Assembly: GCA_034620365.1 (NCBI GenBank)
Contig: JAQGEQ010000107.1
Coordinates: 62,001-126,000, forward strand
Origin: Pegea sp. RAD2-039
Lineage: Eukaryota > Chordata > Thaliacea > Salpida > Salpidae
DNA length: 64,000 nt
Direction of reading: 5' to 3'
The notes below the pieces were generated by a model. It worked only from the letters and a program-made list of their open reading frames with translations. It was not told the origin of the DNA and ran no database searches. A program made the position numbers and the translations under genes. Of this stretch, positions 942-53,803 are shown piece by piece. Each line of letters starts with the position of its first letter. Position 1 is the stretch's first letter.

Positions 942-1820
942 ATGGAGATAAATTATGGTTGTCGGAACCACACCTGTAAGTCGTTCTTTAAATCCATCAT
1001 AGGTGTGATCGAGGTAGTTGACTCAGAAAGAAATAAAAAGAAAGCAATAAAGTATTGTGAGGAGAATGAGGGGATGCTGATCCCTCTAAATAATCAAACT
1101 GTAGTTGATGAAATATCAAATAATTTAGTGAATTGTTGTAAGAACGGTAAATGGCAGTTAAGACACGAAAAATTATGGCATGTTGGTATTGAATGCAGAA
1201 ATAAGGTATTCACGTGGTTCAATGGTGTTCAATTTGATAGAAAAAAATATTCTAACTACAGTAACTTATATTTTCAAAGATGTGAAGAATTATTTTTGAG
1301 TCCTTCTAAAAAATGCTTGCATAAAGACCCTGGTTGGAGATCTATTAAACGCGCGAATATTTTGTGCTTGAAAGATCATAAAAGAAAACTTTGGAAACTA
1401 ACTGAAAATGTGATGCCGACAACAACAACTTCTTCTTTTCCTACATCAACTACAAACGAAGTCACTGACAGCAACACAACACAAACAGTATTCGGTTTGT
1501 CTCTAGCTTTAGCTCTATCAGTTGTGGTTGTTATGATTTTGTCACTGATACTTTTTGTAACAATTAAAAAAAAGAAACAAGCTTCAAATAGGCAAATATC
1601 AAACTTGGATGTTGTTGAGACTCATGAATTAAGAAACTTTGAACAATCAACTTATGTAAATGATGTAGTTCAAGATTTTTCTACTCAAGTAGTTGAAAAT
1701 CATGATTATGAAAATATCGTGGAACCACTTGCTATACCAGACGCCAATGATATCCAGCTACGATCATCTAATGAATATGTCGCTGAGGAGTATGTGTTTA
1801 TGAGGCCAATCAAAAGATAA
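942..1820 (+). CDS. C-type-lectin-like single-pass receptor with YxxM tail (cluster member 1)
   Basis: A predicted cell-surface receptor of 292 residues. Residues 7-142 align with the paralogues: C12, the AIKYC helix, a conserved VDEIS segment, HVGIEC where typical lectin domains have WIGL, and the closing LCL. This is a C-type-lectin-like fold without recognisable calcium-site motifs. A Thr/Ser-rich stalk (157-182) precedes a transmembrane helix (183-208) and a KKKKQ stop-transfer. The tail has YVND and YENI (YxN, Grb2-type) and ends with overlapping YVAE and YVFM (YxxM, PI3K-SH2 or YxxPhi endocytic type). The frame opens at 849 with a hydrophobic stretch, but two acceptor-like AGs (882 and 903) and the paralogues' starts favour the ATG at 942. 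A poly(A) signal AATAAA lies near 2004. The ligand is unknown; the receptor role is inferred from architecture. Confidence 0.8.
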   Translation: MEINYGCRNHTCKSFFKSIIGVIEVVDSERNKKKAIKYCEENEGMLIPLNNQTVVDEISNNLVNCCKNGKWQLRHEKLWHVGIECRNKVFTWFNGVQFDRKKYSNYSNLYFQRCEELFLSPSKKCLHKDPGWRSIKRANILCLKDHKRKLWKLTENVMPTTTTSSFPTSTTNEVTDSNTTQTVFGLSLALALSVVVVMILSLILFVTIKKKKQASNRQISNLDVVETHELRNFEQSTYVNDVVQDFSTQVVENHDYENIVEPLAIPDANDIQLRSSNEYVAEEYVFMRPIKR

Positions 1821-2460
1821 CCAGCTGATTTGTATTTGAAGATTTGCATATTCGGAACATTATGATAATTTTGAATATTTTCAGACGACCACAAGTTTGT
1901 TTAAAGTTCTGTTTTAACTTACTTTAGTTTTTCATTTATTCTCTACTCTTTTATTATATTTTTATAAAGATTATTTGGTGATAAGATCAACATTTTATAA
2001 CTAAATAAAGATGTTGATCCTTGGTTTCATGAGAACCTCAATAACTTTTCAAATATCAAATTTCATTCACTTGAAGTCACATATTTTCATGACATCAAAT
2101 TTTAATGATAATCTCAAGAAATTATTCTTTTTATTCGTGTCTAACTTAAACACTTTTACATTGGATGGTCAGTTTCGGAGTAATGAAATGATATGAAGAA
2201 CGTGAAATAAAAATGTTAATTTGTATAACAGACTGAAAAGTCAAAAAGCTAGAAAACGCTGATAAAAATGGACTTAAAAGCTAGATTCTTGAAACGCTTT
2301 CCACCAATATATTTTCTTTGAGTACTAAGACAACAACCAACATATAGGACAACATCTGGAAATGCAGGGATACTCCACAAAAAAAAAAGCCGTCTAAACG
2401 TAGTGATAAAATCCTTACTATAAATTGGGTTCTTTTTCAAGAATATTTATTTCAAAAATC
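1821..2460. other. 3' flank and intergenic DNA
   Basis: This holds the 3' UTR of the receptor gene with an AATAAA near 2004. Short open frames at 2011-2196 and 2249-2440 show no family resemblance or coding-like composition and are treated as chance. Confidence 0.4.
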
Positions 2461-2565
2461 TTGCTAACACAAATAATATCCATTAAGTTAGAAATCTAGA
2501 AAGCAAAAGATGTAACACATGGAATTTCAGTAGTCCTCAAAGCATATAAGAATGAACAATTATTT
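2461..2565 (-). mobile_element. Fragment of dispersed hairpin-tailed element
   Basis: It matches the internal part of the element repeated across the window, with the landmarks gctaacac, gatgtaacacatgg and cagtagtcctcaaagcatat. The copy is on the minus strand and diverged, and it lacks the hairpin and AATA tail. Confidence 0.65.
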
Positions 2566-3286
2566 TTACAATTTTTTATTTGTATTTTTATCATGGCCAT
2601 CAACTTTAACACTTAGTGCAGTAACAGCTTTTTAAAAGGACAATTAAGGTTCGTTCCCGATTCCATCACTACATCAAGATCAATCACATTTTAAAAGATT
2701 CATTAGAAAATAAAATTCAAGTAGTTCCTTTATCAAGTGATATGTGTTGAGTTTTCTATATTTCTTTGTCTATTTTCTGATATTGTATTTTTCTATGTTT
2801 CTATTCTTTTTGTATTAATCTTATATTGTGATACTTAAGACTTTCCAATTATATCTCATAATACTTGGTTTTGTCAGCTGTAAGAGCTGTTGAATTTGTA
2901 ACTCGCAGCCACGCGTTGAATAAATCAATAAAAATAATTTGGTTTTTAAATGTGTAATTATCAACTAAATTGAAAGAATGTGTTTTGAGCAAAACTTAAA
3001 ATCACAAAACTGTTTCAAATCTTAGAAGGAATTTATAGAAAACTTAATTAGAAGAAGATTTCTGTTTATATTAAAAAGATCTTTTTTGAATCAGTTAATA
3101 ATTAGATGTAAATAAACACACACTTTTCACTATTACTCTACAAAACATAAAATTTAGGTCAAGTAAAGAAATTGATATTAAATTATTCAACAAATTGTTA
3201 GAAGAATCGATTATTTGGATCAGTAATTATGTTGAGGAAGATTTTGTTAACAATGAAAGAACTAATTACAAAACACAGATGAAACC
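2566..3286. other. Intergenic, nothing recognised
   Basis: AT-rich DNA without a supported gene. A slightly less AT-rich stretch near 2640-2700 shows no long frame. Confidence 0.35.
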
Positions 3287-3526
3287 AGCACCTCTAACTA
3301 ACACATATTCTCACAAATAACATCTACTAAGTTAGAAATATAGAAAGATGTAACACATGGCATTTCAGTAGTCCTCAAAGCATATAACAGTGAACAATTA
3401 CATAGAATATTAATAATCGTAGTTTAGAAATGACAATGTTGGCAATATTATAACTTCTGCTTGAACAATGCGAGTGATTCTGACATGATAATGTCTTATA
3501 GCAGCTGGTTCCAGGTACTAATTTCT
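3287..3526 (-). mobile_element. Near full-length dispersed hairpin-tailed element
   Basis: A minus-strand copy running from the hairpin remnant (cacctctaactaacac) through the conserved middle to the 5' border gcagctggttccaggtacta. The copies at 13.9 and 52.1 kb share that 5' border, so the element has a defined length of about 300 bp. Confidence 0.75.
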
Positions 3527-4075: not shown

Positions 4076-4725
4076 CTAATAAAACAGATGAAAATTATAT
4101 AATTATGTTCACAAGTTAAAAAATAGTTTAGATATCCACAAAAAGTAAACATACTTCAACCTGTTCATTGAAGTTATATCACTTTTGATTATCAGATGAA
4201 AAGTTTGAAAGATTAAATCTTTATAAAAATTGTTCTCTGATAGAAAGTTCATCATCAGATTTCTTCTCAGAGATCCTCAGATGTCAGATCATCTTCTGAT
4301 CCATTTTAGAAATATAAATGAGAAGCTTTGAAACATATTTGAATCCTACAAAAAAAAGTTGTATAAAAATGAGCCAAGAAATAAATGTGATTTATTTTAA
4401 AGTTAATTAAAACAAGAACATTATCACTAAATTACATAAAATGTCTCATTCTGGTAAATGTATGATGAAAGGATATATTCCTAAAAAGTTCTGCCATTTA
4501 ATAATACATTATTCATAAATAATTCAAAAGTTAGAGTTTTTAGAAATAATAATATCAATCAATCAATAAATAGTTAATTATTAAAAGAACTGATGATATT
4601 CAAAAGTGATATAAAAATCTAAATAAATAGAATAAAGATATGTAACTTTTAAATATATACAAAAAAAGAATGAAGATAAAATTAGAAAACAACTCATACT
4701 TAGATTATAAAACTGATAAAAATAT
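4076..4725. other. Intergenic, nothing recognised
   Basis: AT-rich with a few GATC/CAGAT-rich bits near 4190-4310 that resemble degenerate satellite sequence. No gene is supported. Confidence 0.3.
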
Positions 4726-5950
4726 ATCAAGATAAACAGATGTAACTCTGAGACAAATTGTTAGAAAGTTTGAAGATCAGAATAATTAGATGATGAAGTC
4801 ATGATTGAATCTTCATAAGAAGAGATGGAAGATATCAGAATGAACTGATGTAACTCTGTGACAAGTTGTTAGAAAGTTTGAAGATCAGAAAAATTAGAAG
4901 ATGAAATCATGTTTGCATCTTCATAAGAAGAGATGGAAGATATCAGAATGAACTGATGTAACTGAGGCAAGTTGTTAGAAAGTTTGAAGATCAGAATAAT
5001 TAGATGATGAAGTCATGTTTGAATCTTCAGAAGAAGAGATGGAAGATATCAGAATGAACTGATGTAACTCTGAGACAAGTTGTTAGAAAGTTTGTAGATC
5101 AGAATAATTAGAAGATGAAGTCATGTTTCGATTTTTATAAGAAGAGATGGAAGATATCAGATTGAACTGATGTAACTCTGAGACAAGTTGTTAGAAAGTT
5201 TGAAGATCAGAATGATTTGAAGATGAAGTCATGTTTGAATCTTCATAAGAAGAGATGGAAAATACCAGAATGAACTGATGTAACATGAGACAAGTTGCTA
5301 GAAAGTTTGTAGATCAGAATAATTAGAAGATGAAGTCATGTTTGGATTTTTATAAGAAGAGATGGAAGATATCAGATTGAACTGATGTAACTCTGAGACA
5401 AGTTGTTAGAAAGTTTGAAGATCAGAATGATTTGAAGATGAAGTCATGTTTGAATCTTCATAAGAAGAGATGGAAAATATCAGAATGAACTGATGTAACT
5501 CTGAGACAAGTTGCTAGAAAGTTTGAAGATCAGAATAATTAGAAGATGAAGTCATGTTTGAATCTTCATAAGAAGAGATGGAAGATATCAGAATGAACTG
5601 ATGTAACTCTGAGACAAGTTGTTAGAAAGTTTGAAGATCATAATGATTAGAAGATGACGTCATGTTTGAATCTTCATAAGAAGAGATGGAAAATACCAGA
5701 ATGAACTGATGTAACATGAGACAAGTTGCTAGAAAGTTTGAAGATCAGAATAATTAGAAGATGAATTCATGGTTGAATCTTCATAAGAAGAGATGGAAGA
5801 TATCAGAATGAACTGATGTAACTCTGAGACAAGTTGTTAGAAAGTTTGAAGATCAGAATAATTAGATGATGAAGTCATGTTTGAATCTTCATAAGAAGAG
5901 ATGGGAGATATCAGAATGAACTGATGTAACTCTGAGACAAGTTGTTAGAA
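4726..5950. repeat. 108-bp tandem satellite, array 1 (about 11 units)
   Basis: Successive units begin with gttgttagaaagtttgaaga and recur about every 108 bp (some units are 3-5 bp shorter). Landmarks in each unit are gatcagaataatta, gaagtcatgtttgaatc and aagaagagatggaagatatc. The same unit forms a larger array in an intron at 21.9-23.7 kb. One unit near 5653 carries TGACGTCA where others have TGAAGTCA. Confidence 0.95.
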
Positions 5951-7152
5951 ATTATCCAAAATTATCAAAAAAAATATAATTTTTATCAATTTAGAAACAA
6001 GAATGATGAAAAGCTAACTATAATCAAACCTCAAAATTACCAAGTATAAAATCTTCCTTTCCAACAGCTTAGAGTTTATAATCAGATGTTAGAATTAGAA
6101 GAAGTCTGGATAATCTTTAAAAATCTTCAAAAATGAAAGGTGTTTGGTCTTCTACCTTCTTATTCTATACTGCTATAAAAAAGTTGTCAAAATTAAATAT
6201 TATGTTGAAAAATTTATCAATTTTATTACATTTTATAAAAAAATTAAATTAAATTTTTGCTAAAAAATATTTATAATATAAAGATTTGGACTGAATGAAA
6301 TTATATTATTAAAAATAAATTAATAAAATAAATAAATAAAAATAATTTGTAATATATTAAAAAATAATAAAGATTAAGACAAACATAAAAAAATTAATAT
6401 ATATCATTTATATTTTATAATAAGTTTATTAATAATTTCAATAAATTACTAAAAATTAAGTAAAAAAATTATAAAATTTCTACAAAACTATTTATTAAAA
6501 GCAGATTTACTTTAAATAAAAATAAATAATCTATAAATAAAATCTCCAATAAAATTTAACTTTATAAATATCAAATTGAAAACAATATTTTCGTAATAAA
6601 TAGAAAACAAAAAGTTATATATACCATAAATACATACAAAAATAAAGTTTTATTGAAAGCTGACAATTTGCTAGTTTAAACACGAAAGGGAGATTTTGTT
6701 TTTTTTTTATTTTTTACCCATTTCCATTAAAACAAGTTTACTAAAAATAAAGTTTTTCGAAAATTCGATAAAGAAAAATTGATGATATACTTTTTATATT
6801 TAAATATAAAAATAATTATTTTCAGTTTTTCAAAACCTTATGAACAAATTGTTATTTACAAAAGTTCGTTTATAGCAAAAGCTGAAATATTTCGAATACC
6901 AAGATACTTAAAACTTTCTTTAACGTTCGAATTATACAAATAATGAATGTATAAAAGTTAAAAGAAATAAAAAATGAAGCTCATTGGTTAGAGGAGCATC
7001 TAAAAACAAACAGAATAACTTTTGTTCGCTTTTAAAACTCTGTTAAGATTTATCAAGAAAAAACTATAAGATGATTTTTTTTTTCAATTTTATCATGTGT
7101 TTTTTCAGTAAATGTATTTACTTATTGTAGATTTAAATTTTGTAATTATATT
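5951..7152. other. Very AT-rich intergenic DNA
   Basis: Long A/T runs dominate between about 6200 and 6700. No frame or RNA gene is supported. Confidence 0.35.
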
Positions 7153-9639: not shown

Positions 9640-11067
9640 ATGTCTAAAACTAGTTGTAGACTACTTTTTAATTCCAGTATTGGTCAGGTTGAAGTTATAG
9701 TTGAAAGAAAATCTAAAAAAGAAGCTATTAAATATTGTGAAGAGAATAATGGATCTTTAATTTTATTACAAAATCAGTCAATAGTTGATGAAGTATCTGA
9801 TAAAATTAAGAAATATACTTTTACAAATAATGAGTTATGTGGTGTAGTTAGTTTTTATTTAGTTGTTGGACTTGAATGTAAAAATGGAGTTTATATGTGG
9901 TTAGATGGAACTGAGTTTAATGGGAATGAATATCAATCTAATCTGTCATTAGAAAGAAATAAGAAATGTAGAAATGTTTATCTTGCTCCTCGTTCAAATG
10001 AGTTAGTTTCATTTCAACATTCAGTTGCAAAATCATTTCTATGTTTAAAAAATAGTGGAACTCAAACAAGATTTCAAAAAAAACAAACAACCAGTCAACA
10101 AACTAAGTTTCGACAAGCAACAAAGCCAACAGTAACAACCAGTCAACAAACTAAGTTTCGACAAACAACAAAGCCGACAGTAACAACCAATCAACAAACT
10201 AAGTTTCGACAATCAACAAAGCCGACAGTAACAACCAGTCAACAACCTAAGTTTCGACAAACAACAAAGCCGACAGTAACAACCAGTCAACAAACTAAGT
10301 TTCGACAATCAACAAAGCCGACAATAACAACCAATCAACAAACTAAGTTTCGACAATCAACAAAGCCGACAGTAACAACCAGTCAACAAACTAAGTTTCG
10401 ACAAACAATAAAGCCGACAGTAACAACCAGTCAACAAACTAAGTTTCGACAATCAACAAAGCCGACAGTAACAACCAGTCAACAAACTAAGTTTCGACAA
10501 ACAACAAAGCCGACAGTAACAACCAGTCAACAAACTAAGTTTCGACAAACAATAAAGCCGACAGTAACAACCAATCAACAATCTGGCTTTCGACAAACAA
10601 CAAAGCCGACAGTAACAAGCAGTCAACAAACTAAGTTTCGACAAACAACAAAGCCAACAATAACAACCAATCAACAATCTGGCTTTCGACAAACTGTGCA
10701 GCTTACAGAAGCAACTAAATTACAAACTGGTCTTGATCTAACATTCAAAGTAGAAACAACAAACAACTTTTTCATCATTGGATCTTGTATTGTCTCATTC
10801 TTATTAGTTGCAGTCATTTTTTGTTTGATCTTGGGAGCATTCTACGCAAAAAAGAAGCAAGAATCAGATGAAAATGATCAGATTGAACTTGAAAATTTCG
10901 ATGATGCATCAATCGATGTGAATGATAATCTAATTTATGCTGATGTTAATCACGCTTTAGATGATTATGTGATTTATGATGAAGTACCATATGAAGATGA
11001 TTATGAGGAGATAGATGATACGGATGTTACTAATCTTTATACAGGGAATCATTATGATTATCATTGA
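9640..11067 (+). CDS. C-type-lectin-like receptor with expanded mucin-like stalk (cluster member 2)
   Basis: A 475-residue predicted surface receptor. Residues 6-137 form the family lectin-like domain (SCRLLFNSSIG, KYCEENNGSL, VVGLEC, MWLDG, FLCLK). Residues about 150-354 are some 13 tandem copies of a 16-residue Thr/Gln/Lys unit (PTVTTSQQTKFRQTTK type), a likely O-glycosylated stalk. The membrane helix is about 375-402, followed by AKKKQ. The tail has eight tyrosines, including LIYADV and VIYDEV, which fit the ITIM consensus (I/V/L/S-x-Y-x-x-L/V/I), plus DYEEI. The terminal YxxM seen in most paralogues is absent. The closest relative is 37278, which has nearly the same transmembrane region but no stalk repeats. 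AATAAA lies near 11195. Confidence 0.85.
   Translation: MSKTSCRLLFNSSIGQVEVIVERKSKKEAIKYCEENNGSLILLQNQSIVDEVSDKIKKYTFTNNELCGVVSFYLVVGLECKNGVYMWLDGTEFNGNEYQSNLSLERNKKCRNVYLAPRSNELVSFQHSVAKSFLCLKNSGTQTRFQKKQTTSQQTKFRQATKPTVTTSQQTKFRQTTKPTVTTNQQTKFRQSTKPTVTTSQQPKFRQTTKPTVTTSQQTKFRQSTKPTITTNQQTKFRQSTKPTVTTSQQTKFRQTIKPTVTTSQQTKFRQSTKPTVTTSQQTKFRQTTKPTVTTSQQTKFRQTIKPTVTTNQQSGFRQTTKPTVTSSQQTKFRQTTKPTITTNQQSGFRQTVQLTEATKLQTGLDLTFKVETTNNFFIIGSCIVSFLLVAVIFCLILGAFYAKKKQESDENDQIELENFDDASIDVNDNLIYADVNHALDDYVIYDEVPYEDDYEEIDDTDVTNLYTGNHYDYH
10086..10700 (+). repeat. Coding 48-bp minisatellite (stalk)
   Basis: About 13 in-frame 48-bp units of the form acaaccagtcaacaaactaa followed by gtttcgacaa and an ACA/AAG-rich end. 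Since 48 is divisible by three, copy-number change keeps the frame. Units differ at a few positions (caatctggcttt against caaactaagttt near the 3' end), suggesting unequal exchange. Confidence 0.95.
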
Positions 11068-12793: not shown

Positions 12794-13444
12794 TTAAACT
12801 ACTGCAACTGCTGGAGTTTCTCGTCTCCGAGATTCAGGAGGATTTCTTCGGATTAGTTCCTGCATAGGGATCATTTCTGGATTCGCGGAGTTTTGGGGTT
12901 CCGGAGTTCTCTGTGAAAGAAACTTTTTTCGACTCCAGAACAAAAATGCGAGTACTAATAAGATGATTGGGATTGAAATAGAGAGCGCTATCTCAGACTC
13001 CCCAAACCCATTTACAGACACATCTCGATGTTCAGAACATAAAAAAGGTTCTTTAAATCTTCCCTTGACAGAGATTAATCTTTTGGAGGCAGAATCAAGA
13101 TAAATATTCTCACATTCTTCTTTATTCAAATTAACCATGAGATTACTTCCATCAAAACTTGAACCATCAATCCATTTATAGATTGCATCTTTGCAATCAA
13201 CTCCAATATTCCACAGGGAGTTAGTCCTGCATCCACAATCTTCAGTATTAAATTGACAATTTTCAAGTTTCTTAGAAACTTCATCTATGATCTGTTGATT
13301 AGGAAGCGAGATCAACTTCCCATTTAGTAGACGACTTGATTCTTTGCAGTATTTAACTGCTTCATCATATATTGTAGGATCATCTAAAACTTCAATTCTT
13401 CCGATGCTAGAATCAATAAATTTTTCACAATTTGGCATCTTCAT
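12794..13444 (-). CDS. Lectin-like receptor with tyrosine-free tail (cluster member 3)
   Basis: 216 residues from MKMPNCEKF. The frame extends 19 codons upstream to a GTG, but the first ATG gives the family N-terminus. The lectin-like domain spans 6-137 (KFIDSSIGRIEVL, KYC, WNIGVDC, KWIDG, FLC) with extra cysteines at 70 and 72. The membrane helix is about 151-170 (ALSISIPIILLVLAFLFW), followed by SRKK. Unlike its relatives the tail contains no tyrosine. It is proline- and arginine-rich (PEPQNSANPEM, ESRRRETP) and ends in AVAVV, which could be a class II PDZ ligand. It is one of the most diverged members, and its signalling must differ from the YxxM members. Confidence 0.8.
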   Translation of the reverse strand: MKMPNCEKFIDSSIGRIEVLDDPTIYDEAVKYCKESSRLLNGKLISLPNQQIIDEVSKKLENCQFNTEDCGCRTNSLWNIGVDCKDAIYKWIDGSSFDGSNLMVNLNKEECENIYLDSASKRLISVKGRFKEPFLCSEHRDVSVNGFGESEIALSISIPIILLVLAFLFWSRKKFLSQRTPEPQNSANPEMIPMQELIRRNPPESRRRETPAVAVV

Positions 13445-14963: not shown

Positions 14964-15449
14964 ATGGATATGGGAATTTTGTTTAGATGTGGCTTGACAT
15001 TTTTACTTACTTCCATATTTTGGTGGATTATTTTTCTTCTTTGGAAATATGTTTGCAAAAAAGAGTCCCAAGACTCCGCAGAGAATGAAGATATGTTAGA
15101 AATGATGGAAATTGGTAATGTAACTCCATCTGAAACCCAGGAATTTGGTGGATCCGATAACTACAGTTTTGAAGGTGAAAGTGATGAAGCTGGACCTTCT
15201 AATGAGAGTCCTTATGTAAGAATGAAAGAAACTCCAACAGATGATGAAGAAAATGATTCTGGTGGTGATTCAAATGTTCCTGAATCTTCGCATGATTATG
15301 AAGAGATTGATTCGATTGGAAATGAAAGCGAAGATGAATATGTAGCCATGAGAGAAGGAGTTTTAGCACCAGAACTAGAAACCAATCAGAATGAAGTCTT
15401 AAATAACTGTCCTAGTGAAGCAAGTATTTATGATAATGTACCAAGATAA
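14964..15449 (+). CDS. Tail-only membrane protein with multiple YxxM/ITIM-like motifs
   Basis: 161 residues. Only four residues precede a hydrophobic helix (5-28, ILFRCGLTFLLTSIFWW onward), followed by KYVCKK. The remaining ~130 residues form an acidic cytosolic tail with PYVRM, DYEEI, EYVAM and SIYDNV. These are the same motif types (YxxM, DYEEI, ITIM-like) as in the lectin receptors around it, but no ectodomain is present. The layout recalls transmembrane adaptors such as DAP10 or LAT in general design, with a membrane-proximal Cys that might be palmitoylated; no homology to them is claimed. It could instead be the 3' exon of a split receptor gene, but no upstream lectin exon was found. AATAAA lies near 15696. 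Confidence 0.7.
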   Translation: MDMGILFRCGLTFLLTSIFWWIIFLLWKYVCKKESQDSAENEDMLEMMEIGNVTPSETQEFGGSDNYSFEGESDEAGPSNESPYVRMKETPTDDEENDSGGDSNVPESSHDYEEIDSIGNESEDEYVAMREGVLAPELETNQNEVLNNCPSEASIYDNVPR

Positions 15450-17191: not shown

Positions 17192-17446
17192 ATGTTGGAA
17201 GTTTTGTATTATGTAATCCCTGCAATAAGCTTATCTCTTATAGGGATTGGCTGGTATCTGTTAAGATCTATTATCAAAAATGCTGATGATGAAGAACCAC
17301 TATTCGATGATACTGAAGATCAAACACTTTTTAATGAATCAGATGAAGTTGGGAAGCTTGCTAGTGACTATAAAAGTCCTCCACGTTCAACAGTTCATTT
17401 TGAATCTGATGATAAACAGAAGATTATTTGTTCAAACCTTCTTTGA
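17192..17446 (+). CDS. Small single-pass membrane protein
   Basis: 84 residues: a hydrophobic helix at about 5-24 (LYYVIPAISLSLIGIGWYLL) followed by RSIIKN and an acidic tail with one tyrosine (DYKSPP). It sits beside the tail-only gene 14964 on the same strand and has the same no-ectodomain design, though the tail is shorter and lacks YxxM. An acceptor-like site at 17109 and the plain ATG context suggest a spliced 5' UTR. It may be a decayed tail-only paralogue, a real small adaptor or one exon of a larger gene. Moderate to low certainty. Confidence 0.45.
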   Translation: MLEVLYYVIPAISLSLIGIGWYLLRSIIKNADDEEPLFDDTEDQTLFNESDEVGKLASDYKSPPRSTVHFESDDKQKIICSNLL

Positions 17447-30039: not shown

Positions 30040-30750
30040 TTATGATAAAGAAAAAAATGGTTTCATAGCAAGATATTGTTCCTCCACCACATCATCATTA
30101 TTCAGATCAACTTGATTAAGAGAGAGTCTTTGATTGTGATGATTAGGGACATCGTAAATAGGTTCATCATTAGTTTTCTTACTTTCGTTAGCCTCATAAG
30201 AAATTTCTTGATAAATACTCTCATCTCCATTAAGAAGATCAACATCCAGTTCCACATAGATTTTATTATTGATCTTAGTAACTACATTTCGATGAGAATT
30301 TATTGGTTGCATTTCAATATCCTCAGAAGACAATTTTCGCTTCTGTAATTTTGAATATATTTTCATAATTGCTAGAAAAGATACAGCTGTGATCACAAGA
30401 CACAAACAAATTAGAAGAATAATGTTTGCACCGAACAGGAATCCATTATCATTATTAAATGAAAATTTGTTTAACAAATCATATTCTGTTCTCAAATTGT
30501 AGTTTTTGATTTCATGATTACCATTGAAAAAACTGTGAACTCTCAAAACTTGTTTCTTATTCTCATCATAACAGCAATCAACCAATTTTTCTGACATTTT
30601 ATTCACTTCATCATATAAAGGTTCCAGATCTCCATTTTGTTGTTCACATTCCTTAATTGGTTTATTTCTATCATCTATTTCAGATCCTTCATTAATCTGA
30701 CAAATACTTGAAACAAATAATTCTTGATCTTGTATTTGAATTTGAAACAT
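30040..30750 (-). CDS. Receptor with truncated lectin-like domain but intact tyrosine tail (cluster member 4)
   Basis: 236 residues. Residues 13-60 match the first third of the family domain (VSSICQINEGSEIDD, KECEQQNGDLEPL, EVNKMSEKLVDCC). The N-terminal cysteine and everything from the WIGL strand to the closing cysteine are gone, replaced by about 45 unrelated residues. The membrane helix (105-129) and the tail are intact, with KIYVEL, SIYQEI (fits ITIM), IYDVP and a C-terminal YLAM (YxxM). The frame is uninterrupted over 711 bp, so selection on the tail is plausible; it could also be a young pseudogene. The tail resembles 48848 and 53018. Confidence 0.75.
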   Translation of the reverse strand: MFQIQIQDQELFVSSICQINEGSEIDDRNKPIKECEQQNGDLEPLYDEVNKMSEKLVDCCYDENKKQVLRVHSFFNGNHEIKNYNLRTEYDLLNKFSFNNDNGFLFGANIILLICLCLVITAVSFLAIMKIYSKLQKRKLSSEDIEMQPINSHRNVVTKINNKIYVELDVDLLNGDESIYQEISYEANESKKTNDEPIYDVPNHHNQRLSLNQVDLNNDDVVEEQYLAMKPFFSLS

Positions 30751-37277: not shown

Positions 37278-38090
37278 TTAATGGATTGGTTTCATCGTTA
37301 GATAATAACGATTTTCATCGGTAGTATCGTGATGAGTTGCCATTTGTAAATCATTAACATTTAAATCATCAATTTCTTCATAATTGTTTTCCTCTAAATC
37401 TTCATCATTAGCTAGATCAACTTCGTTGGTATGAACATTAGTAGCTACATCATCAACATTTCCAGTTTCAGGATGATTGTCTTCATCTGATTCTTGCTTC
37501 TTTTTTACAAAATATGCTCCCAAGATCAAACAAAGAATGACTGCAACTAAAAAAAATGAGATAATACAAGATCCAATGACGAAGAAGTTGTTTGTTGTTT
37601 CTAAAGTTGGTTTTGTTCTTAGTGCTTCATCCAATTTATTATTCTTTAAGCACAAAAAAGAATATGGAGCTTTATAAGAAGAAGAGAATAATTGATGTTC
37701 AAAAGGTCGAAAAAGAATAAGACTTCTACATCTGTTTTCTGTAAGATTTTGTGATAAGCTAAGATTATCTGATGGTAATATGAAACTTGGTTGATAATTA
37801 GACCCATTAAATTCAGTTCCATCTTGCCAACTGTAGAATCCATCCTTACAATTAAGCCCAATAATCATGACATTCAATCTTTCAATAATGAAACCACTAT
37901 TAGCTTCACGTTTACAATTTGTGAGTTTATTAGAAATCTCATCAACTATTGATTGATTAGGTAATGAAATTAATGATCCATTATTTTCATCACAATATTT
38001 AATAGCTTCATTTTTAGACTTTTTTTTAAGCACAACTTCAACCTGACCAACAGTCGAATTAAAGAATTTCTGACACTTTTTATGAAACAT
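37278..38090 (-). CDS. C-type-lectin-like receptor, YxxM tail (cluster member 5)
   Basis: 270 residues. The lectin-like domain is 6-148 (CQKFFNSTVGQVEVV, KYCDENNGSL, IIGLNC, SWQDG, FLCLKN). A very short stalk (RTKPTLETT) precedes the helix at about 169-194 and VKKKQ. The tail is acidic, with NYEEIDD and a C-terminal YYLTM (YxxM). The transmembrane segment is nearly identical to that of 9640, making this the repeat-free sister of the stalk-expanded gene. Upstream, acceptor-like cttag and attcag lie just before attcaaATG, as in 9640. Confidence 0.85.
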   Translation of the reverse strand: MFHKKCQKFFNSTVGQVEVVLKKKSKNEAIKYCDENNGSLISLPNQSIVDEISNKLTNCKREANSGFIIERLNVMIIGLNCKDGFYSWQDGTEFNGSNYQPSFILPSDNLSLSQNLTENRCRSLILFRPFEHQLFSSSYKAPYSFLCLKNNKLDEALRTKPTLETTNNFFVIGSCIISFFLVAVILCLILGAYFVKKKQESDEDNHPETGNVDDVATNVHTNEVDLANDEDLEENNYEEIDDLNVNDLQMATHHDTTDENRYYLTMKPIH

Positions 38091-40493: not shown

Positions 40494-41249
40494 TTATTTA
40501 TTTTTGCTAGTATCAGTAGTTTTAATAGACGTATAATCTTTATCAAGGTTCATATTATAAACAATATTTATTCTTTCTTCATGTTCATTTGTTGGATTAT
40601 CGATTTCACAATAAATATTTTCATCATCTACATTTCTTTCATTGCAATCTTCATCAGCAGTTGATCTTTCCTTCTTCTTCTTCAAGATAACACTCTTTAA
40701 AATGATCCCACAAATAATAGCAAATAGTAAAAACAAACTAACAAGCAAACCAACAACAATAGAATTATTTGCTTCTGTTTGTTTAGGTGTTATTGGGGTA
40801 AAGCTTGTTGTTGTTACTAATGTTTGATTGAAACTTTGGTTCTTTAAACACAAAAATGGAAGTTTACAATTTTCGCATTTCTTTGAGATATAAAGTTGTT
40901 TATATGTTGGAAGCAGAAAAATCTTTTCACAATCCTTTGATAAACTCGAACTTGGTTCATAATTTGTCTCGACAAATTTTTCACCATCTATCCAGTTCCT
41001 ATTTTGACAATCTAACCCAATATTCCAAAATCTATTTTTCCTTTTTATTTCAGATTTTCTATCTTTACCTTCATCATAGCAGTCTTCAAGTTTATCAGAT
41101 ACTTCATCAACTATCTCCTGATTATGTAATGGAATCAACATCCCATCATTTTCTTCACAATATTCGATGGCTTTAGATTTACTTTTATCTTCATCTACAA
41201 TTTCTATCTCGCCAATACTAGACTCCATAAATTTGTTGCATTTCAACAT
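40494..41249 (-). CDS. C-type-lectin-like receptor (cluster member 6)
   Basis: 251 residues. The lectin-like domain is 4-135 (CNKFMESSIGEIEIV, YCEENDGMLIPLHNQ, FWNIGLDC, WIDGEKF, FLCLKN). The stalk is Thr-rich (QTLVTTTSFTPITPKQTE), the helix about 163-186, followed by KKKKER. Tail tyrosines are IYCEI, VYNMN and DYTSI; the terminal YxxM of most members is missing. An in-frame TAA lies six bases before the ATG (ttataaattATG) with no AG between them, so the protein starts here and has no signal peptide. About 130 bp upstream are shared with 43632 and 45250. Confidence 0.85.
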   Translation of the reverse strand: MLKCNKFMESSIGEIEIVDEDKSKSKAIEYCEENDGMLIPLHNQEIVDEVSDKLEDCYDEGKDRKSEIKRKNRFWNIGLDCQNRNWIDGEKFVETNYEPSSSLSKDCEKIFLLPTYKQLYISKKCENCKLPFLCLKNQSFNQTLVTTTSFTPITPKQTEANNSIVVGLLVSLFLLFAIICGIILKSVILKKKKERSTADEDCNERNVDDENIYCEIDNPTNEHEERINIVYNMNLDKDYTSIKTTDTSKNK

Positions 41250-43631: not shown

Positions 43632-44468
43632 TTACAATTTTCCACGAATTGGTTGAAGATAATGATGATTAACATCAATATCTTCCATATCGATATAATC
43701 AGCTTCATGATGTACATTTGGAAGAGTATATCTTCTTTCTTGATGCTCACTTTCTATACCATCTACTTCCTGATAAAAATGTTGATCATTTCTGTTACTA
43801 GAGTCTTCGTTTTCATATTGAACCTCATCAGGAACTAGTCTTTGCTTCTTTTTTTGATAAAAAATATTTATAATAAAACCACAAATAATTACAAGTAACA
43901 AAAATATACTAACAGAAAAACCGATAACAACAGAATTATTTGTTTCTGTTATTCCATTATCAGCATCCAAATTTGGAGTTGGTTTTAAAATTGGTTCATC
44001 AAATAACATTTGTGATTTTATTGTTGATATCTTGGTCTCAAATTTTTTATTCTTTAAACACATAAATGGGTTTTTATCTTTATATAAGAGAAATGGATTC
44101 GAAAAACAAGAAAAGAGTTTATGGTTGGCAGGGTTAAGAAAAATATTTTTACATGCATATCTTGACAAGCGTAAACCTCCATACTTGCCCTCATAAAAAT
44201 GTTCTCCATCTTGCCAGTTATATCTTTCATCTTTATGATCAAGTCCAATCATCCACAATACTCGTTTCCTACCAACCACATGTCCACTTTCATTAAAACA
44301 ATCAACCAATTTATCTGATACTTCATCAACTACTGACTGATTATGGAATGGAATCAACATTCCATCATTCTCTTCACAATACTTAACTGCTTCAGATTTA
44401 GTTTTAAGGTCATCAACAATCTCTATGACTCCAATACTAGACTCTATAAATTTTTTGCATTTCAACAT
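43632..44468 (-). CDS. C-type-lectin-like receptor, duplicate a (cluster member 7)
   Basis: 278 residues. The lectin-like domain is 4-137 (CKKFIESSIGVIEIV, YCEENDGMLIPFHNQ, LWMIGLDH, NWQDG, FMCLKN). The cysteine conserved in GLDC is His here, so one disulfide may be lost; duplicate b keeps it. The helix is about 178-203, followed by QKKKQR. The tail has FYQEV, YTLP, DYIDM (YxxM) and HYLQP. An in-frame TAA six bases upstream of the ATG fixes the start and excludes an upstream in-frame leader on this exon. It differs from 45250 at some two dozen residues, mostly in the ectodomain. Confidence 0.85.
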   Translation of the reverse strand: MLKCKKFIESSIGVIEIVDDLKTKSEAVKYCEENDGMLIPFHNQSVVDEVSDKLVDCFNESGHVVGRKRVLWMIGLDHKDERYNWQDGEHFYEGKYGGLRLSRYACKNIFLNPANHKLFSCFSNPFLLYKDKNPFMCLKNKKFETKISTIKSQMLFDEPILKPTPNLDADNGITETNNSVVIGFSVSIFLLLVIICGFIINIFYQKKKQRLVPDEVQYENEDSSNRNDQHFYQEVDGIESEHQERRYTLPNVHHEADYIDMEDIDVNHHYLQPIRGKL

Positions 44469-45249: not shown

Positions 45250-46077
45250 TTACAATTTTCCACGAATTGGTTGAAGATAATGATGATTAACATCAATATC
45301 TTCCATATCGATATAATCAGCTTCATGATGTACATTTGGAAGAGTATATCTTCTTTCTTGATACTCACTTACTATACCATCTACTTCCTGATAAAAATGT
45401 TGATCATTTCTGTTACTAGAGCCCTCGTTTTCATATTGAACCTCATCAGGAACTAGTCTTTGCTTTTTTTTTTGATAAAAAATATTTATAATAAAACCAC
45501 AAATAATTACAAGTAACAAAAATATACTAACAGAAAAACCGATAACAACAGAATTATTTGTTTCTGTTATTCCATTATCAGCATCCAAATTTGGAGTTGG
45601 TTTTAAAATTGGTTCATCAAATAACATTTTTGATTTTATTGATGATGTCTTGGTCTCAAATTTTTTATACTTTAAACACATAAATGGATTATTTTCTTTA
45701 TATAGATTCGGAAAACGAGAAATGAGTTTATGGTTGGCAGGGTCAAGAAAAATATTTCTACATGCATATCTTGACAAGCATAAACCTACATAATTGCCCT
45801 CATAAAAATGTTCCCCATCTTGCCAGTTATATCTTCCATCTTTACAATCAAGTCCAATCATCCACAATACTCGTTTCCTACCAACCACATGTCCAGTTTC
45901 ATCAAGACAATCAACCAATTTATCTGATACTTCATCAACTACTGACTGATTATGGAATGGAATCAACATTCCATCATTCTCTTCACAATACTCAACTGCT
46001 TCAGATTTAGTTTTAAGGTCATCAACAATCTCTATGACTCCAATACTAGACTCCATAAATTTTTTGCAGTTCAACAT
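45250..46077 (-). CDS. C-type-lectin-like receptor, duplicate b (cluster member 8)
   Basis: 275 residues, with the same organisation as 43632: lectin-like domain 4-134 with the full cysteine set (LWMIGLDC, NWQDG, FMCLKY), helix about 175-200, QKKKQR, and a tail with FYQEV, YTLP, DYIDM and HYLQP. The tail is nearly unchanged between duplicates while the ectodomain has substitutions and a three-residue length difference. An in-frame TAA lies six bases before the ATG. Functional role as for the family: a putative signalling surface receptor. Confidence 0.85.
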   Translation of the reverse strand: MLNCKKFMESSIGVIEIVDDLKTKSEAVEYCEENDGMLIPFHNQSVVDEVSDKLVDCLDETGHVVGRKRVLWMIGLDCKDGRYNWQDGEHFYEGNYVGLCLSRYACRNIFLDPANHKLISRFPNLYKENNPFMCLKYKKFETKTSSIKSKMLFDEPILKPTPNLDADNGITETNNSVVIGFSVSIFLLLVIICGFIINIFYQKKKQRLVPDEVQYENEGSSNRNDQHFYQEVDGIVSEYQERRYTLPNVHHEADYIDMEDIDVNHHYLQPIRGKL

Positions 46078-47856: not shown

Positions 47857-47873
47857 TGCCTCGACCCGGGATT

Positions 47874-47912
<39 letters not shown>

Positions 47913-47929
47913 GACTGAGCTATCAAGGC
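47857..47929 (-). tRNA. tRNA-Phe (anticodon GAA)
   Basis: 73 nt, starting GCCTTGATAGCTCAG, with anticodon loop CTGAAGA, the B box GGTTCAATCCC and ending TCGAGGCA. It fits the standard eukaryotic tRNA-Phe, all stems are complete, and a T-run terminator follows immediately. Confidence 0.95.
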
Positions 47930-48847: not shown

Positions 48848-49669
48848 TCATCTCATGTTACCAGCAATTGATTGCATAGCTAGGTATTGTGGGTCATTAT
48901 TATCAATAAAATTAGAATATTCATTTTCTGATGTCAATTGATTGTTTAGATTGATGTTAGCCTCCTCATAAAGATGACCAAGAGATATTCTATTATAAAC
49001 TGCAGAAAATTCATCACTAACTGAAGAATCATCAAATGAACAATCATCATTTACATCTTCAGTTACTGATCTTTTACTTTTCTTTGAAAGAAATATCTTT
49101 AAGATTAAAATACAAATAATTACAAATAAAACGACTAAACCAGCAGACAAACCAATAATTAAAAACTTGTTTATTTCTGATGAACAGTTTGGGATATTTT
49201 CTGATGTAAATGTCTCATTATAATCCGAATAGTTTGGATACTCCCAAGTTTTCTTCTTCAGACACAAAAATGGAGTCACATGTGGTGTTGATGCCTTTAT
49301 TACTCTTTTTAAACCAGGCAGAAAGTTCACAGAGTCACAGCTATTAGATGACAATAACAGACTTGGCATATAATTATCCCCAACAAACTTCTTTCCATCT
49401 GACCAACTATAATCTCCTTTATTACAATCAAGTCCTATATTCCAAAAGATTAAATTACGAAATACTGAAATATTTCGCTCACCAACTTTATAAAAACAAA
49501 CATCTAACTTATCAGATACTTCATCAACTATCTTCTGATTATGTAATGGAATCAACATTCCATCATTTTCTTCACAATACTTTATTGCTTTGTTATTAGA
49601 TGTAAGTTCATCAATAACTTCAATCCAACCAATACTGGAGTTAAAAAACCTTTCACATTTATAATACAT
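48848..49669 (-). CDS. C-type-lectin-like receptor, YxxM tail (cluster member 9)
   Basis: 273 residues. The lectin-like domain is 5-137 (CERFFNSSIGWIEVI, YCEENDGMLIPLHNQ, FWNIGLDC, SWSDG, FLCLKK). The stalk has NYSDYNETFTSENIPN with possible N-glycosylation (NYS, NET). The helix is about 168-193, followed by SKKSKR. The tail carries VYNRI, LYEEA, EYSNF and PQYLAM (YxxM) near the C-terminus, like 30040 and 53018. The start is the first ATG before the conserved Cys; no signal peptide is visible. Positions 10-13 (AACTCCAG|T) also look like a splice acceptor, a feature shared by several paralogues. Confidence 0.85.
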   Translation of the reverse strand: MYYKCERFFNSSIGWIEVIDELTSNNKAIKYCEENDGMLIPLHNQKIVDEVSDKLDVCFYKVGERNISVFRNLIFWNIGLDCNKGDYSWSDGKKFVGDNYMPSLLLSSNSCDSVNFLPGLKRVIKASTPHVTPFLCLKKKTWEYPNYSDYNETFTSENIPNCSSEINKFLIIGLSAGLVVLFVIICILILKIFLSKKSKRSVTEDVNDDCSFDDSSVSDEFSAVYNRISLGHLYEEANINLNNQLTSENEYSNFIDNNDPQYLAMQSIAGNMR

Positions 49670-51159: not shown

Positions 51160-51296
51160 AAATAACTTTATCAGCTATCTCATCAATAAAAATGATAGAT
51201 TATTACCAACATACTATCTAATTACTTCAAATTTAGTTTTATCTACAACTTCAATTTGACAAGATCTAAAAATTCTTTAGCTGATAAAATACATTT
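51160..51296 (-). pseudogene. Relic of a C-type-lectin-like receptor
   Basis: The minus-strand translation reads RSCQIEVVDKTKFEVIR, a stop, then YVGNN, and in a shifted frame FIDEIADKV. These correspond to the family's SSIGQIEVVDKTKSEAIKYC and IVDEISDKL. Stops and a frameshift show decay, and nothing of the transmembrane part or tail was found downstream. Confidence 0.7.
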
Positions 51297-51400
51297 TAAA
51301 TGATTTAGTAAAACAAATATAACATGAGTTAGTTATTATTTAGTTATCTAGTGTTTTAATTTTATAAATATTATTTAAGATTTGCTTAATATGCTTTTTA

Positions 51401-51462
51401 AGATGTTATTTGTGAGAATGTTCAGGCACCCTCCTTCGCATTTATTGAAATAAATAAAGTGA
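51401..51462 (+). mobile_element. Very short 3' end of dispersed element
   Basis: It has gttatttgtgagaatg, then jumps to ttcaggcaccctccttcgca and ttattgaaataaataa; the 5' arm of the hairpin is deleted. Confidence 0.75.
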
Positions 51463-52084
51463 AACATAAATCTTTCTTTATAAAATTAGTTCTTTTATTT
51501 GTGTGCATTAAAAAAAAAAGATTATTTTATAAAACCCACTAAGCAAACAGAAAATTAAAAGTTATCTAATCTGACTTTTCTAGTTTTTTTCTTATTATTG
51601 TTTATCTAAAATCAAATGTCACATGAGATTAGTAATTTTCAGAAAGTTTTTTTTATGAACAATTTCTTTAAAACTTCTCAAAATTATTTATTTACTAGCA
51701 ACAGAACAAATAATCTTGGTATTATTTAGTACTTCTATTTGTTTATTACTTTTACTATTTATTTTATTTTCCGAAACTTAATTCAGCGTTTGTTTATTAA
51801 AGAATTTGTTATTCAGTGATGTTAATAAGTTTCAAAAGTTCCTTGAGAAGCTTTTAAAGTATCTGATCAAAACCCAAAAATTAAACCAAAAAAAAAGAAT
51901 TTGTTAATTACTTTATTTATTATAAAGCTTATGATTTGGTTATTAGGTGCATCAACCAATATTTATGTTTACATTAAATGCAGTCACAAAAGTTATTCAA
52001 TAAATAAATTAATAACAATGTTTTGATTTTTCCTTACATTAGTTAGGAATATTATTAAAAGAAATTCAAAACTTTAAATTAATT
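51463..52084. other. Intergenic, nothing recognised
   Basis: AT-rich with no supported feature. Confidence 0.3.
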
Positions 52085-52390
52085 TGCTGATAGTACTTTG
52101 AACCAGCTGCCATCATACATTGTCATGTCAGAATCACTCGTGTTGTTCAGGCAGAAGTTGAACCGTTATGATATTGCCAACATTGTCATTTCTAAACTGT
52201 GATTTTTTATATTATCAACATTCTATGTAATTGTTCACTGTTATATGTTTTGAGGGCTACTGAAATGCCATGTGTTACATCTTTTGCTTTCTATATTTTT
52301 AACCTAATAGATGTTATTTGTGAAAATGTGTGTTAGCGAGAGGTGCTCTCTTCAGGCACCCTATTTCACATTTATTGTAATAAATAAATT
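52085..52390 (+). mobile_element. Full-length dispersed hairpin-tailed element
   Basis: A plus-strand copy from the 5' border tagtactttgaaccagctgc through tcagaatcactcgtgttgtt, the conserved middle, the hairpin gaggtgctctcttcaggcac and taataaataaa. It defines the element length of about 300 bp together with 3.3 and 13.9 kb. Confidence 0.85.
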
Positions 52391-53017
52391 TGTTCATTAC
52401 ATTAGAGACCTAAAGACTATTTTTTTTAATGAAACAACTTTTACTTTTTTTAGGTTTCTAAAAATCATCAGTTTTCTTTTTAATAATTAAAACATTTTTA
52501 TTTTTAAAATAAAAGTTATTTTTAGTTTTCTTTTATAGATTTATTTGGAAAGTTATTCATAACCCTATTAGTTATTTGGTTATTTTAAAACATAAATATT
52601 ATTTCTAAAAATAATAACAAATCTATCTTTTTATTTATTTATAATAAAACTGTTTTATCTTCAAGTATTTTGATTTCAATTTTCACTGTAATCATCTATA
52701 ACATAGTTTTTGTAAATATATTTCAATTTAGAAGTCTTTACAAAAACCAGTTTTAATATTTAAAACTACTACTGGAAAGTACGTGTAAACAAACTATAAA
52801 TAACACCAAAACATATTAATTTTTAATAAATTTACAAAATAAGTTTACAGTTGAAAGTAAAAAGCTGTAGCTCAAGAAAGAAAATAATAAAAATATAAGT
52901 TATTTCTGAGTAAATAAAAGTAATTACTTGGATATAAGATAACATTTTTCTATATAAGTGGAAACTTTTTTACATTCAAACCACCTCAGGTGCATCAGAC
53001 TTCATTTTAAACTTATT
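52391..53017. other. Intergenic, nothing recognised
   Basis: AT-rich DNA, including the 3' flank of gene 53018. Confidence 0.3.
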
Positions 53018-53803
53018 TTAAAGAGGCTGCATAGTTAAATATTGCTCTTTGTTACTGTTAACTGAAGAATGAGGATTTTCTGAAGGAAGATGGTTGCGTT
53101 TAATCATTATAGGTTCTTGATAAGTATCTTCTTCTTCATTTCCATGAATCTCTTGATAAATATGTTCTTCATCATTACCATCATCATGACTGTCATCTTC
53201 ATATCTATTTTTACTATCTGTGTCATCAACATCAACTCTATTTGTAAATATAACACTAGAATCCAACAGTTGCTTCTTTGAGAAAAACTTTTTCAAAATC
53301 AAACCACAAATGACTGCAATTAATAAAAATAAGACAACAGGCAACCCAATAACCAGAAACTTGTTCAAGTGTCCGGCTTGTTGAGTTTGCTCGTTCAATT
53401 TATTCTGTAGGCATAAAGAAGGCTGGCTAAAGTCTTGATCAATAAAAACCAGACGTTTTTCTGAAGATTTTAGATAAGCATTTTTACATTTGTTTGATGC
53501 AAGTTTATATTTACTTTTATCAAATTCAGTACCATCTAACCACTCGTAATTTCCATTTTTGCAGCTAAGTCCTACCCTCCAATGATAAGTTTCAATGAAG
53601 TTATACAAGCTGTCAGCTTCATCAACTCTATATTTACAACCTTCGATTGTATCTGACACTTCATCAACTATCTTCTGATTATGTAATGGAATTAACATCG
53701 CATCATTTTCTTCACAATACTCAACTGCTTCATTATAGTAACTGCGTTTGTTTACAACTTCAATTAGTCCAATACTAGAATTAAAAAACTTCTCACAGCC
53801 CAT
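53018..53803 (-). CDS. C-type-lectin-like receptor, YxxM tail (cluster member 10)
   Basis: 261 residues. The lectin-like domain is 3-131 (CEKFFNSSIGLIEVV, YCEENDAMLIPLHNQ, WRVGLSC, EWLDG, SLCLQN). The helix is about 148-172, followed by KKFFSKK. The acidic tail has HIYQEI, TYQEP and a C-terminal QYLTM (YxxM). The first ATG encodes MGCEKFF; an N-terminal MGC could be a lipidation signal by rule, but the family comparison makes an exposed ectodomain more likely. A frame stop TAA lies nine bases upstream, with an acceptor-like ttaag between it and the ATG. Confidence 0.85.
   Translation of the reverse strand: MGCEKFFNSSIGLIEVVNKRSYYNEAVEYCEENDAMLIPLHNQKIVDEVSDTIEGCKYRVDEADSLYNFIETYHWRVGLSCKNGNYEWLDGTEFDKSKYKLASNKCKNAYLKSSEKRLVFIDQDFSQPSLCLQNKLNEQTQQAGHLNKFLVIGLPVVLFLLIAVICGLILKKFFSKKQLLDSSVIFTNRVDVDDTDSKNRYEDDSHDDGNDEEHIYQEIHGNEEEDTYQEPIMIKRNHLPSENPHSSVNSNKEQYLTMQPL

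Follow-up and report, generated by a model that had tools for sequence, protein, structure and literature searches.

A large family of single-exon, apparently leaderless C-type-lectin-like receptor genes with exchanged tyrosine-motif tails in the salp Pegea

Described receptor systems and the salp cluster

The mammalian NK-complex receptors (Ly49, NKR-P1, CD94/NKG2 and the Dectin-1 cluster) are type II proteins with an N-terminal helix and a C-terminal CTLD. Vertebrate paired receptors (KIR, LILR, SIRP, PILR and FcR-like) mostly carry immunoglobulin heads with leaders, their activating members combine a charged helix with an ITAM adaptor, and paired-receptor logic is known mainly from vertebrate immune clusters. 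According to the part of PMC6269167 that deals with GPCRs without a leader, leaderless N-out signal-anchors translocate domains that are almost all shorter than ~40 residues and translocation is blocked by folded N-terminal domains; the figure for the EMC in the corresponding part of PMC10803268 is ~50 residues. CTLD genes of small aquatic invertebrates, which the genes described here resemble in this respect, have been surveyed in rotifers, where the portion of PMC8878817 on secreted C-type lectins admitted proteins only if they had a signal peptide and left transmembrane ones out; surveys of this type could therefore not detect a leaderless membrane family. In the literature on signal-peptide-less lectin receptors, invertebrate ITIM or paired lectin receptors and rotifer lectins, the family was not recognised among the matches listed, and a literature search found no paper that combined 'C-type lectin' with 'reverse signal-anchor'.

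The window (the whole stretch of 64,000 nucleotides that was analysed) contains nine intact single-exon receptor genes and one relic, with open reading frames (ORFs) uninterrupted at the places below, as well as an orphan ORF.

849..1820 (family start ATG at 942), plus strand: g1, receptor; tail with YENI and a final YVFM
9640..11067, plus strand: g2, receptor; tail with YADV, YDEV and YEEI, without YxxM
12794..13444, minus strand: g3, receptor; short, tyrosine-free tail
14964..15449, plus strand: orphan, possible transmembrane adaptor; few residues, one helix and a tail with YVRM, YEEI, YVAM and YDNV
30040..30750, minus strand: g4, relic; lectin-like head shortened and degraded, helix and tail retained (YQEI, YLAM)
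37278..38090, minus strand: g5, receptor; tail with YEEI and a final YLTM
40494..41249, minus strand: g6, receptor; top Lectin_C score in the window
43632..44468, minus strand: g7, receptor; near duplicate of g8 (91% identical), internal YIDM
45250..46077, minus strand: g8, receptor; internal YIDM, query for the genome-wide family search
48848..49669, minus strand: g9, receptor; tail with YNRI and a final YLAM
53018..53803, minus strand: g10, receptor; tail with YQEI and a final YLTM

In the proteins, a diverged C-type-lectin-like head is followed by a Ser/Thr/Pro-rich stalk, a single membrane helix, a basic anchor and a tail. In agreement with the sequence-only reading, the helix and basic anchor follow the head in all intact window genes, and six shared cysteines align across the family, except that g7 has lost the fourth (GLDH), which its twin g8 retains, and that one of the six is displaced in g2. 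The g2 stalk is made up of ~12 T/Q/P-rich repeats of 16 residues (a 48-bp tandem array, 10086-10694).

These genes resemble the NK-complex receptors in their tandem clustering, tails with SH2-docking-like motifs, fast birth-and-death turnover, and a CTLD apparently without calcium/sugar motifs, and NKR-P1 and CD94 chains were among the PDB matches of the family profile; unlike NK-complex receptors, they have the reversed order (head, then helix), are apparently leaderless and occupy one exon. We see no evidence of common descent with that complex beyond the CTLD itself. With the vertebrate paired receptors they share closely similar heads on unrelated tails, but not the immunoglobulin heads or the leaders. 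Targeting by a first helix that leaves the N terminus outside and is followed by basic residues would recall the leaderless N-out GPCRs, whose translocated domains (almost all under ~40 residues in the relevant part of PMC6269167) contrast with at least 150 residues in the family. The orphan lacks a lectin-like head, has a single match in the whole genome and no Pfam match; its tiny pre-helix part and four spaced tyrosine motifs are reminiscent of LAT-like transmembrane adaptors, a likeness of layout alone, and it may be linked to the receptors.

Our preferred reading, to which we assign a probability of roughly 0.6, is that these genes belong to a lineage-specific family of single-pass, one-exon, leaderless CTLD surface receptors, with the head brought outside by a reverse signal-anchor, SH2-docking tails and recombination between heads and tails. 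The N-terminal head would be stabilised by up to three disulfides and held away from the membrane by the Thr/Ser/Pro-rich stalk, and the sole strongly hydrophobic segment, past the stalk, would serve as the reverse signal-anchor (N outside, C inside). Upon ligand binding and phosphorylation, tail tyrosines (YxE[IV], Yxx[ILV] and some YxxM) would recruit SH2 proteins, whether Src-family, SHP2-like or PI3K p85, and duplication with recombination at the helix/tail would have placed closely similar heads on unrelated tails.

Family size and the C-type-lectin-like head

The g8 query gave 134 genome matches, the best of those outside the window at E 6.1e-55, and the level of matching is beyond chance. 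The family count was based on 205 different rows out of the 251 listed from two genome searches, leaving out 15 rows of the first search with E > 0.001 and those of the second that the first already covered (by eye), and same-strand places separated by under 600 bases were counted as one locus. This yielded ~137 merged loci on 20 contigs of the 106-Mb genome, 117 of them at least 400 bases long, a count in which g2 appears twice because of its long stalk and the relic g4 is missed. The AT content and size of the genome would suit a monogonont rotifer, and PMC6555955 gives a similar G+C for Brachionus genes, but no test supported this affiliation: a bdelloid spliced leader had no exact match, the Brachionus MMR-B primer printed in PMC2746195 was absent at up to 3 mismatches, and a search of the assembly for COX1 gave no match. 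The cluster had been described from 53 kb and is far larger, with 41 merged loci over ~326 kb of the window's own contig and 43 over ~306 kb of contig C107. Truncated or stop-bearing copies and many close duplicates were present among the genome matches; these, the locus counts and the head/tail comparisons bear out the proposal, made from the window, that the family has expanded, decayed in part, lost domains and exchanged tails.

A family-profile search returned 67 ORFs, one of which was a canonical lectin (L001). We kept 51 of these, dropping L001, nine that were short, two open at the locus end and four that lacked an ATG (one truncated by the locus end and three that were either second halves or copies with a broken frame); the starts of L024 and L028 were placed by hand. 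Omitting L027, which had no clear helix, and the relic g4 left a set of 49 members, from which g7 was missing; g7 was added for the cysteine-pair, dN/dS and tree analyses.

Pfam Lectin_C matched 18 of 23 heads at E <=0.1 (best 3.1e-6), while the untrimmed window proteins fell below the Pfam cut-off and 4/10 had any Lectin_C match at E <=1. A profile search of PDB sequences gave a best value of 6.1e-10 (LY75), with CTLD proteins by name making up 59 of the best 60 of 93 matched, and hhalign with eight canonical CTLDs encoded in this genome gave 96.3% (E 1.6e-9). These comparisons support homology of the heads to C-type lectins and agree with the lectin-type ectodomain proposed earlier; the family, which the sequence-only reading could not match to any named one, can be assigned to the CTLD superfamily. 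Five positions were invariant in the 23 diverse heads (C31, G78, W86, G89 and C134) and two near-invariant (D88 and F132). Among 50 members, the C2-C6 pair was always present, the C1-C3 pair was complete in 41, missing in 8 and reduced to one Cys in 1, and the C4-C5 pair was complete in 32, missing in 16 and reduced to one Cys in 2; on the tree, the pair losses amounted to only a few events, which counts against the preferred reading. By eye, the canonical penultimate Cys has no general counterpart in the family, which has the C1-C3 and C4-C5 pairs instead, and neither the EPN/QPD nor the WND motif of calcium-dependent sugar-binding C-type lectins was seen in the alignment of 23 heads. Canonical CTLD genes coexist with the family in this genome, and the majority of eight heads that they encode show EP-N-like and W-x-D-like residues.

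Translation starts and membrane topology

An ATG at or before the domain start was found in 62 of the 67 ORFs, the remaining five being the four broken or cut copies and the canonical lectin; this is the fair count, because ATG presence in the 51 retained members follows by construction from a selection that required it. These starts bear on a rather unlikely alternative, in which the proteins are ordinary type I receptors whose leader derives from a missed upstream exon, through trans-splicing or cis-splicing at a weak acceptor, and the family is a normal expansion of signal-peptide-bearing lectin receptors. Leader-like starts do lie upstream of the lectin exon in 5/8 canonical CTLD genes, and the frequency of a leader-like ATG in the 1.2 kb preceding family members (6/26 with enough flank) was not significantly lower (p 0.08). 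Acceptor-like sites were present in 4/51 members (L011, L044, L054 and L056) compared with 5/8 canonical lectin genes in this genome (Fisher p 0.001), L005 and L007 being near-copies among the five controls that had a site. Because the stretches were not equally long (family median 54 bases, controls 75-174), the comparison is given as rates, namely 1.3 sites per kb in the family, 5.1 in canonical genes and 2.3 in background; the family rate, in the sole stretch where an acceptor could lie, argues against a leader exon. For the stretch up to the first Cys, examined next, the end was set six codons in for the five members that had no Cys among their first 20 residues.

No AG of any kind separates the first Cys from the last in-frame stop before it in g6, g8, L039 and L053, and the AG positions of the other members are not conserved (by eye). 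The ATG lies shortly before the first cysteine even in very divergent members, with A at -3 in 38/51, which further disfavours type I receptors with an unseen leader. Maximum hydropathy over 10 residues within the first 35 was 1.79 in the 51 members, compared with 2.3-3.5 in four leader-like stretches that lie upstream of canonical genes and were chosen by a hydrophobicity scan. A hidden leader exon was thus mostly rejected, with acceptor-like sites under background and four members free of any AG in the stretch concerned, and a leaderless start, as originally proposed, is supported in most members examined. The cleavable N-terminal leader of classical type I receptors may be present in g1, L011, L044, L054 and L056; in g1, the in-frame ATG at 849, upstream of the family start, adds a hydrophobic stretch (hydropathy 2.71) that may be a private signal sequence and that fits the type I alternative.

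The helix followed the head in all 49 members with a clear helix, the opposite of the NK-complex type II arrangement, and its C side was the more basic in 46/49. Stalks were rich in Ser, Thr and Pro (40% in 46 stalks vs 17% in tails), and N-glycosylation sequons were only marginally more frequent than expected (72 vs 60.6, p 0.07). The loss of cysteines in pairs, the mucin-like stalks and the positive charge on the tail side point to an extracellular head, and we infer surface location, membrane insertion by the helix and disulfide bonding from these features. The 150-382 residues ahead of the helix, set against the published limit of ~40-50, count against a leaderless extracellular head and lend weight to the type I alternative (parts of PMC6269167 and PMC10803268 on N-terminal translocation). 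Together with the absence of a leader, the difficulty of translocating long heads (same part of PMC6269167) would also suit a cytosolic head, with the protein acting as a membrane-tethered intracellular sensor or adaptor and the tail outside or the helix forming a hairpin. We consider this improbable, as the charge asymmetry places the tail inside, cysteines are retained or lost pairwise, stalks are mucin-like and the tail holds SH2-docking-like motifs.

Tail motifs, head/tail mosaics and selection

Tyrosine motifs, as had been suggested for the tails, were enriched over shuffles in 33 non-redundant tails: YxxM occurred 7 times vs 1.3 expected (in 7/33 tails), YxE[IV] 12 vs 1.9 and Yxx[ILV] 45 vs 25.6. 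The ITIM-like motif [SILV]xYxx[LVI] was found in 9/33 of these tails (12 vs 6.7 expected, p 0.04), and 2/49 sampled tails were tyrosine-free. A final YxxM, thought at first to be present in most members, occurs in half of the window set (g1, g4, g5, g9 and g10), with an internal YIDM in g7 and g8 and no such motif in three; across the 49 sampled tails it was terminal in 5, four of those within the window, and YxxM is not a family hallmark. The expectation that tail tyrosines are specially conserved was not borne out, as 41/45 tyrosines and 727/847 other tail residues were conserved (Fisher p 0.38) in ten disjoint close pairs picked by hand from the pairwise set, which also served for dN/dS. 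The genome contained 33 SH2 matches, including one p85-like and one SHP2-like exon, and a genome search for the p85 iSH2 family gave no match, perhaps because exons split iSH2. Tail phosphorylation and SH2 docking are thus predicted from motifs and candidate partners.

Among 20 close head pairs (>=80% head identity), three had swapped tails, with heads 85-93% and tails 27-39% identical; synonymous distances were 0.05-0.19 for heads and 0.67-1.08 for tails, the latter being rough because the tails hardly align. Close heads on unrelated tails, a feature of paired receptors, are present, and a single ligand could lead to different outputs, as it does with the paired receptors of vertebrates. Head dN/dS ranged from 0.53 to 1.87 and was below 1 in 8/10 pairs; of the claim of a rapidly evolving family, duplication and swapping stand, whereas general positive selection on heads was not seen. 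The fairly high dN/dS, the truncated or stop-bearing copies (with nine members set aside as short) and the numerous close duplicates would also be expected of a decaying or neutral array with little function, in which recent tandem duplication would have produced the starts, motifs and mosaics as side effects. This is very improbable given 51 members with long open frames, many very divergent, CTLD positions invariant across 23 diverse heads, cysteines kept in pairs and dN/dS below 1 in most pairs.

Returning to leaderless surface receptors, we advance a broader proposal tentatively, at somewhat less than even odds: that more than 100 paired-type receptors exist in one animal, that a downstream reverse signal-anchor pulls their leaderless heads through the ER membrane, that head and stalk (150 to ~400 residues) thereby break the ~40-50-residue N-out limit and that swapped tails are alternative SH2 outputs. 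A role in immune, allorecognition or microbe/non-self recognition, with a corresponding ligand, may be envisaged. If confirmed, the family would constitute a large receptor repertoire that changes quickly and follows a logic like that of paired receptors, with one head on different tails, and would offer a natural test of the length of disulfide-bonded domain that a signal-anchor can carry across the ER when there is no leader.

Layout of the cluster and extent of the family

The sequence-only reading had described nine open single-exon receptor genes and one relic in the window (contig C100, 62001–126000), and reading of the ORFs bore this out. Every intact gene encoded a short N terminus, a cysteine-rich head of ~140 residues, a stalk, one helix, a basic anchor and a tail. 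The stalk of the gene at 9640 was built of approximately twelve 16-residue repeats, and the relic at 30040 retained helix and tail, with much of the head gone. G+C content was 21–34% across the window (4-kb steps) and 22–33% across the first 38 loci fetched from the genome (105.7 Mb, 387 contigs). Other features of the window were:

4724–5951 and 21896–23731: near-identical 108-bp tandem repeat in two arrays, ~16 kb apart
20981–21505 (−) and 23721–23903 (−): leucine-rich-repeat ORFs, with the second array between them
24244–25524 (−): ORF of KEQQ[ILM] pentapeptide repeats, derived from a 15-bp tandem array of ~66 copies
25710–25791 (−): predicted tRNA-Leu (anticodon aag), amid receptor genes
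47857–47929 (−): predicted tRNA-Phe (anticodon gaa), amid receptor genes
59943–60722 (+): ORF whose GPS motif falls slightly short of the Pfam cut-off, probably belonging to a gene of the adhesion-GPCR or polycystin type

Genome searches with one family member and with a distant member gave 134 and 117 matches, respectively, which merged into 137 loci on 20 contigs (117 loci of at least 400 bases). The contig holding the window carried 41 merged loci across ~326 kb, and contig C107 carried 43 across ~306 kb. Detailed analysis covered a subset of the family, 51 full-length members. Further clusters of Lectin_C matches lay on contigs C249 (~898–970 kb and 1.39–1.44 Mb) and C30 (~204–437 kb). At locus L027 (contig C22, 51837–52253) the frame stayed open beyond the family head through ~450 residues of TKPTTTEATTEETEATTTK-type repeats and showed no clear helix; the product is possibly a mucin-like or secreted form.

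A lectin-like head and the apparent absence of a leader

Untrimmed window members fell below the Pfam cut-off for Lectin_C, with any match at E ≤ 1 in 4 of 10; once heads were trimmed, 18 of 23 matched, in agreement with the earlier C-type-lectin-like assignment. A profile of 23 heads matched C-type-lectin proteins among PDB sequences (best E = 6.1e-10), and of the best 60 of 93 sequences at E ≤ 1, 59 bore the names of CTLD proteins and one was an influenza hemagglutinin (E = 0.022). When hhalign compared the family heads with eight canonical lectin domains from this genome, the result was 96.3%, and the CTLD landmarks were the invariant positions of the head alignment. The calcium/sugar motifs EPN and WND were not found by eye in that alignment, so that classic sugar binding by these heads is unlikely.

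Of 67 family-profile ORFs, 62 had an ATG no later than the beginning of the domain; four of the other five were copies that are broken or cut, and the fifth was a canonical lectin. Among the 51 full members this ATG lay 1 to 17 codons ahead of the first cysteine and had A at −3 in 38 (for five members lacking an early cysteine, a point six codons in was used instead). In four members (g6, 40494–41249 (−); g8, 45250–46077 (−); L039; L053), the stretch from the last in-frame stop to the first cysteine was free of AG dinucleotides, and therefore a canonical upstream exon cannot be spliced in. A YAG with a suitably placed pyrimidine tract occurred in 4 of 51 family members vs 5 of 8 canonical lectin genes (Fisher P = 0.001). 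Acceptor-like sites per kb, a fairer measure than counts because the stretches compared differ in length, numbered 1.3 in the family, 5.1 in the canonical controls and 2.3 in all sequence examined. Leader-like upstream starts were found in 5 of 8 canonical genes vs 6 of the 26 family members with 1.2 kb of flank (P = 0.08). A leader may be present in the four exceptions with an acceptor-like site (L011, L044, L054 and L056) and in the first window member, g1, where starting at 849 lengthens the protein by a hydrophobic stretch.

Conserved head cysteines (C1–C6) were kept or lost in pairs across 50 heads: C1–C3 were both kept in 41, both absent in 8 and singly kept in 1; C4–C5 gave 32, 16 and 2; and C2–C6 were kept in all 50. 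On the tree, with clades tabulated for labelled rows only, these losses were few events: the 16 rows without C4–C5 formed one clade, as did seven of the eight without C1–C3, with L047 apart on weak support. S, T and P together made up 40% of residues in 46 stalks vs 17% in tails, the tail-side flank of the helix was the more basic in 46 of 49 members, and sequons were only marginally enriched (72 observed vs 60.6 expected, P = 0.07). Together, cysteine pairing, stalk composition and charge asymmetry favour extracellular heads in a leaderless N-out, C-in topology. Such a topology is surprising because of published limits: leaderless N-out signal-anchors almost all translocate domains of less than ~40 residues and folded N-terminal domains block translocation (PMC6269167), while EMC is associated with ~50 residues and longer domains pass via Sec61 (PMC10803268).

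Head–tail mosaics, tail motifs and candidate partners

Heads were at least 80% identical in 20 pairs, and in three of these the tails were less than 40% identical, the shared-head, differing-tail pattern of paired receptors. No converse pair (tails at least 60% alike, heads below 60%) was found.

Mosaic pairs of family loci (tail synonymous distances are rough, the tails being barely alignable)
L024/L028: head 93%, tail 27%; synonymous distance 0.05 in head, 1.08 in tail
L061/L043: head 85%, tail 39%; synonymous distance 0.10 in head, 0.67 in tail
L041/L057: head 85%, tail 28%; synonymous distance 0.19 in head, 0.92 in tail

Over ten disjoint close pairs, head dN/dS ranged from 0.53 to 1.87 and was below 1 in eight, the value of 1.87 (g7/g8) resting on few changes. 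Head selection is constraint with some relaxation, and general positive selection is not indicated.

In 33 non-redundant tails, motif counts exceeded those in shuffles for YxxM (7 vs 1.3), YxE[IV] (12 vs 1.9) and Yxx[ILV] (45 vs 25.6), slightly for ITIM-like motifs (12 vs 6.7, P = 0.04) and at the borderline for YxxP (9 vs 5.0, P = 0.06); YxN, YxxQ and acidic tyrosine neighbours showed no enrichment. At least one Yxx[ILVM] was present in 37 of 49 tails. A terminal YxxM ended 5 of 49, four of them in the window, and the relic has one too. Conservation of tail tyrosines (41 of 45 sites) was not significantly different from that of other residues (727 of 847) over ten disjoint pairs. The genome gave 33 SH2 matches, including a p85-like piece at L079 (4.7e-18 to p85alpha) and an SHP2-like piece at L071 (1.6e-33); others appeared by eye to be Grb2-like or Src-like. 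Inside the receptor cluster, one gene with a single genome match resembled LAT-type transmembrane adaptors in layout, and a second short ORF lay nearby:

14964–15449 (+): few residues, a helix, then a tail with YVRM, YEEI, YVAM and YDNV
17192–17446 (+): N-terminal hydrophobic stretch, short acidic tail

Proposed working of the family

Beyond topology, we infer the steps of a mechanism. The head would most likely bind a protein or surface ligand independently of calcium, clustering would bring about Src-type phosphorylation of tyrosines in the tail, and output would be set by SH2 proteins (SHP2-like, p85 and Src). No comparable family was recognised among the papers listed in a largely open-access literature on lectin receptors and paired receptors. 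Judged from sequence, this is a separate CTLD family, leaderless in most members examined; its domain order is reversed relative to that of NK-complex lectins, and its proposed working would resemble that of vertebrate paired NK-type receptors.
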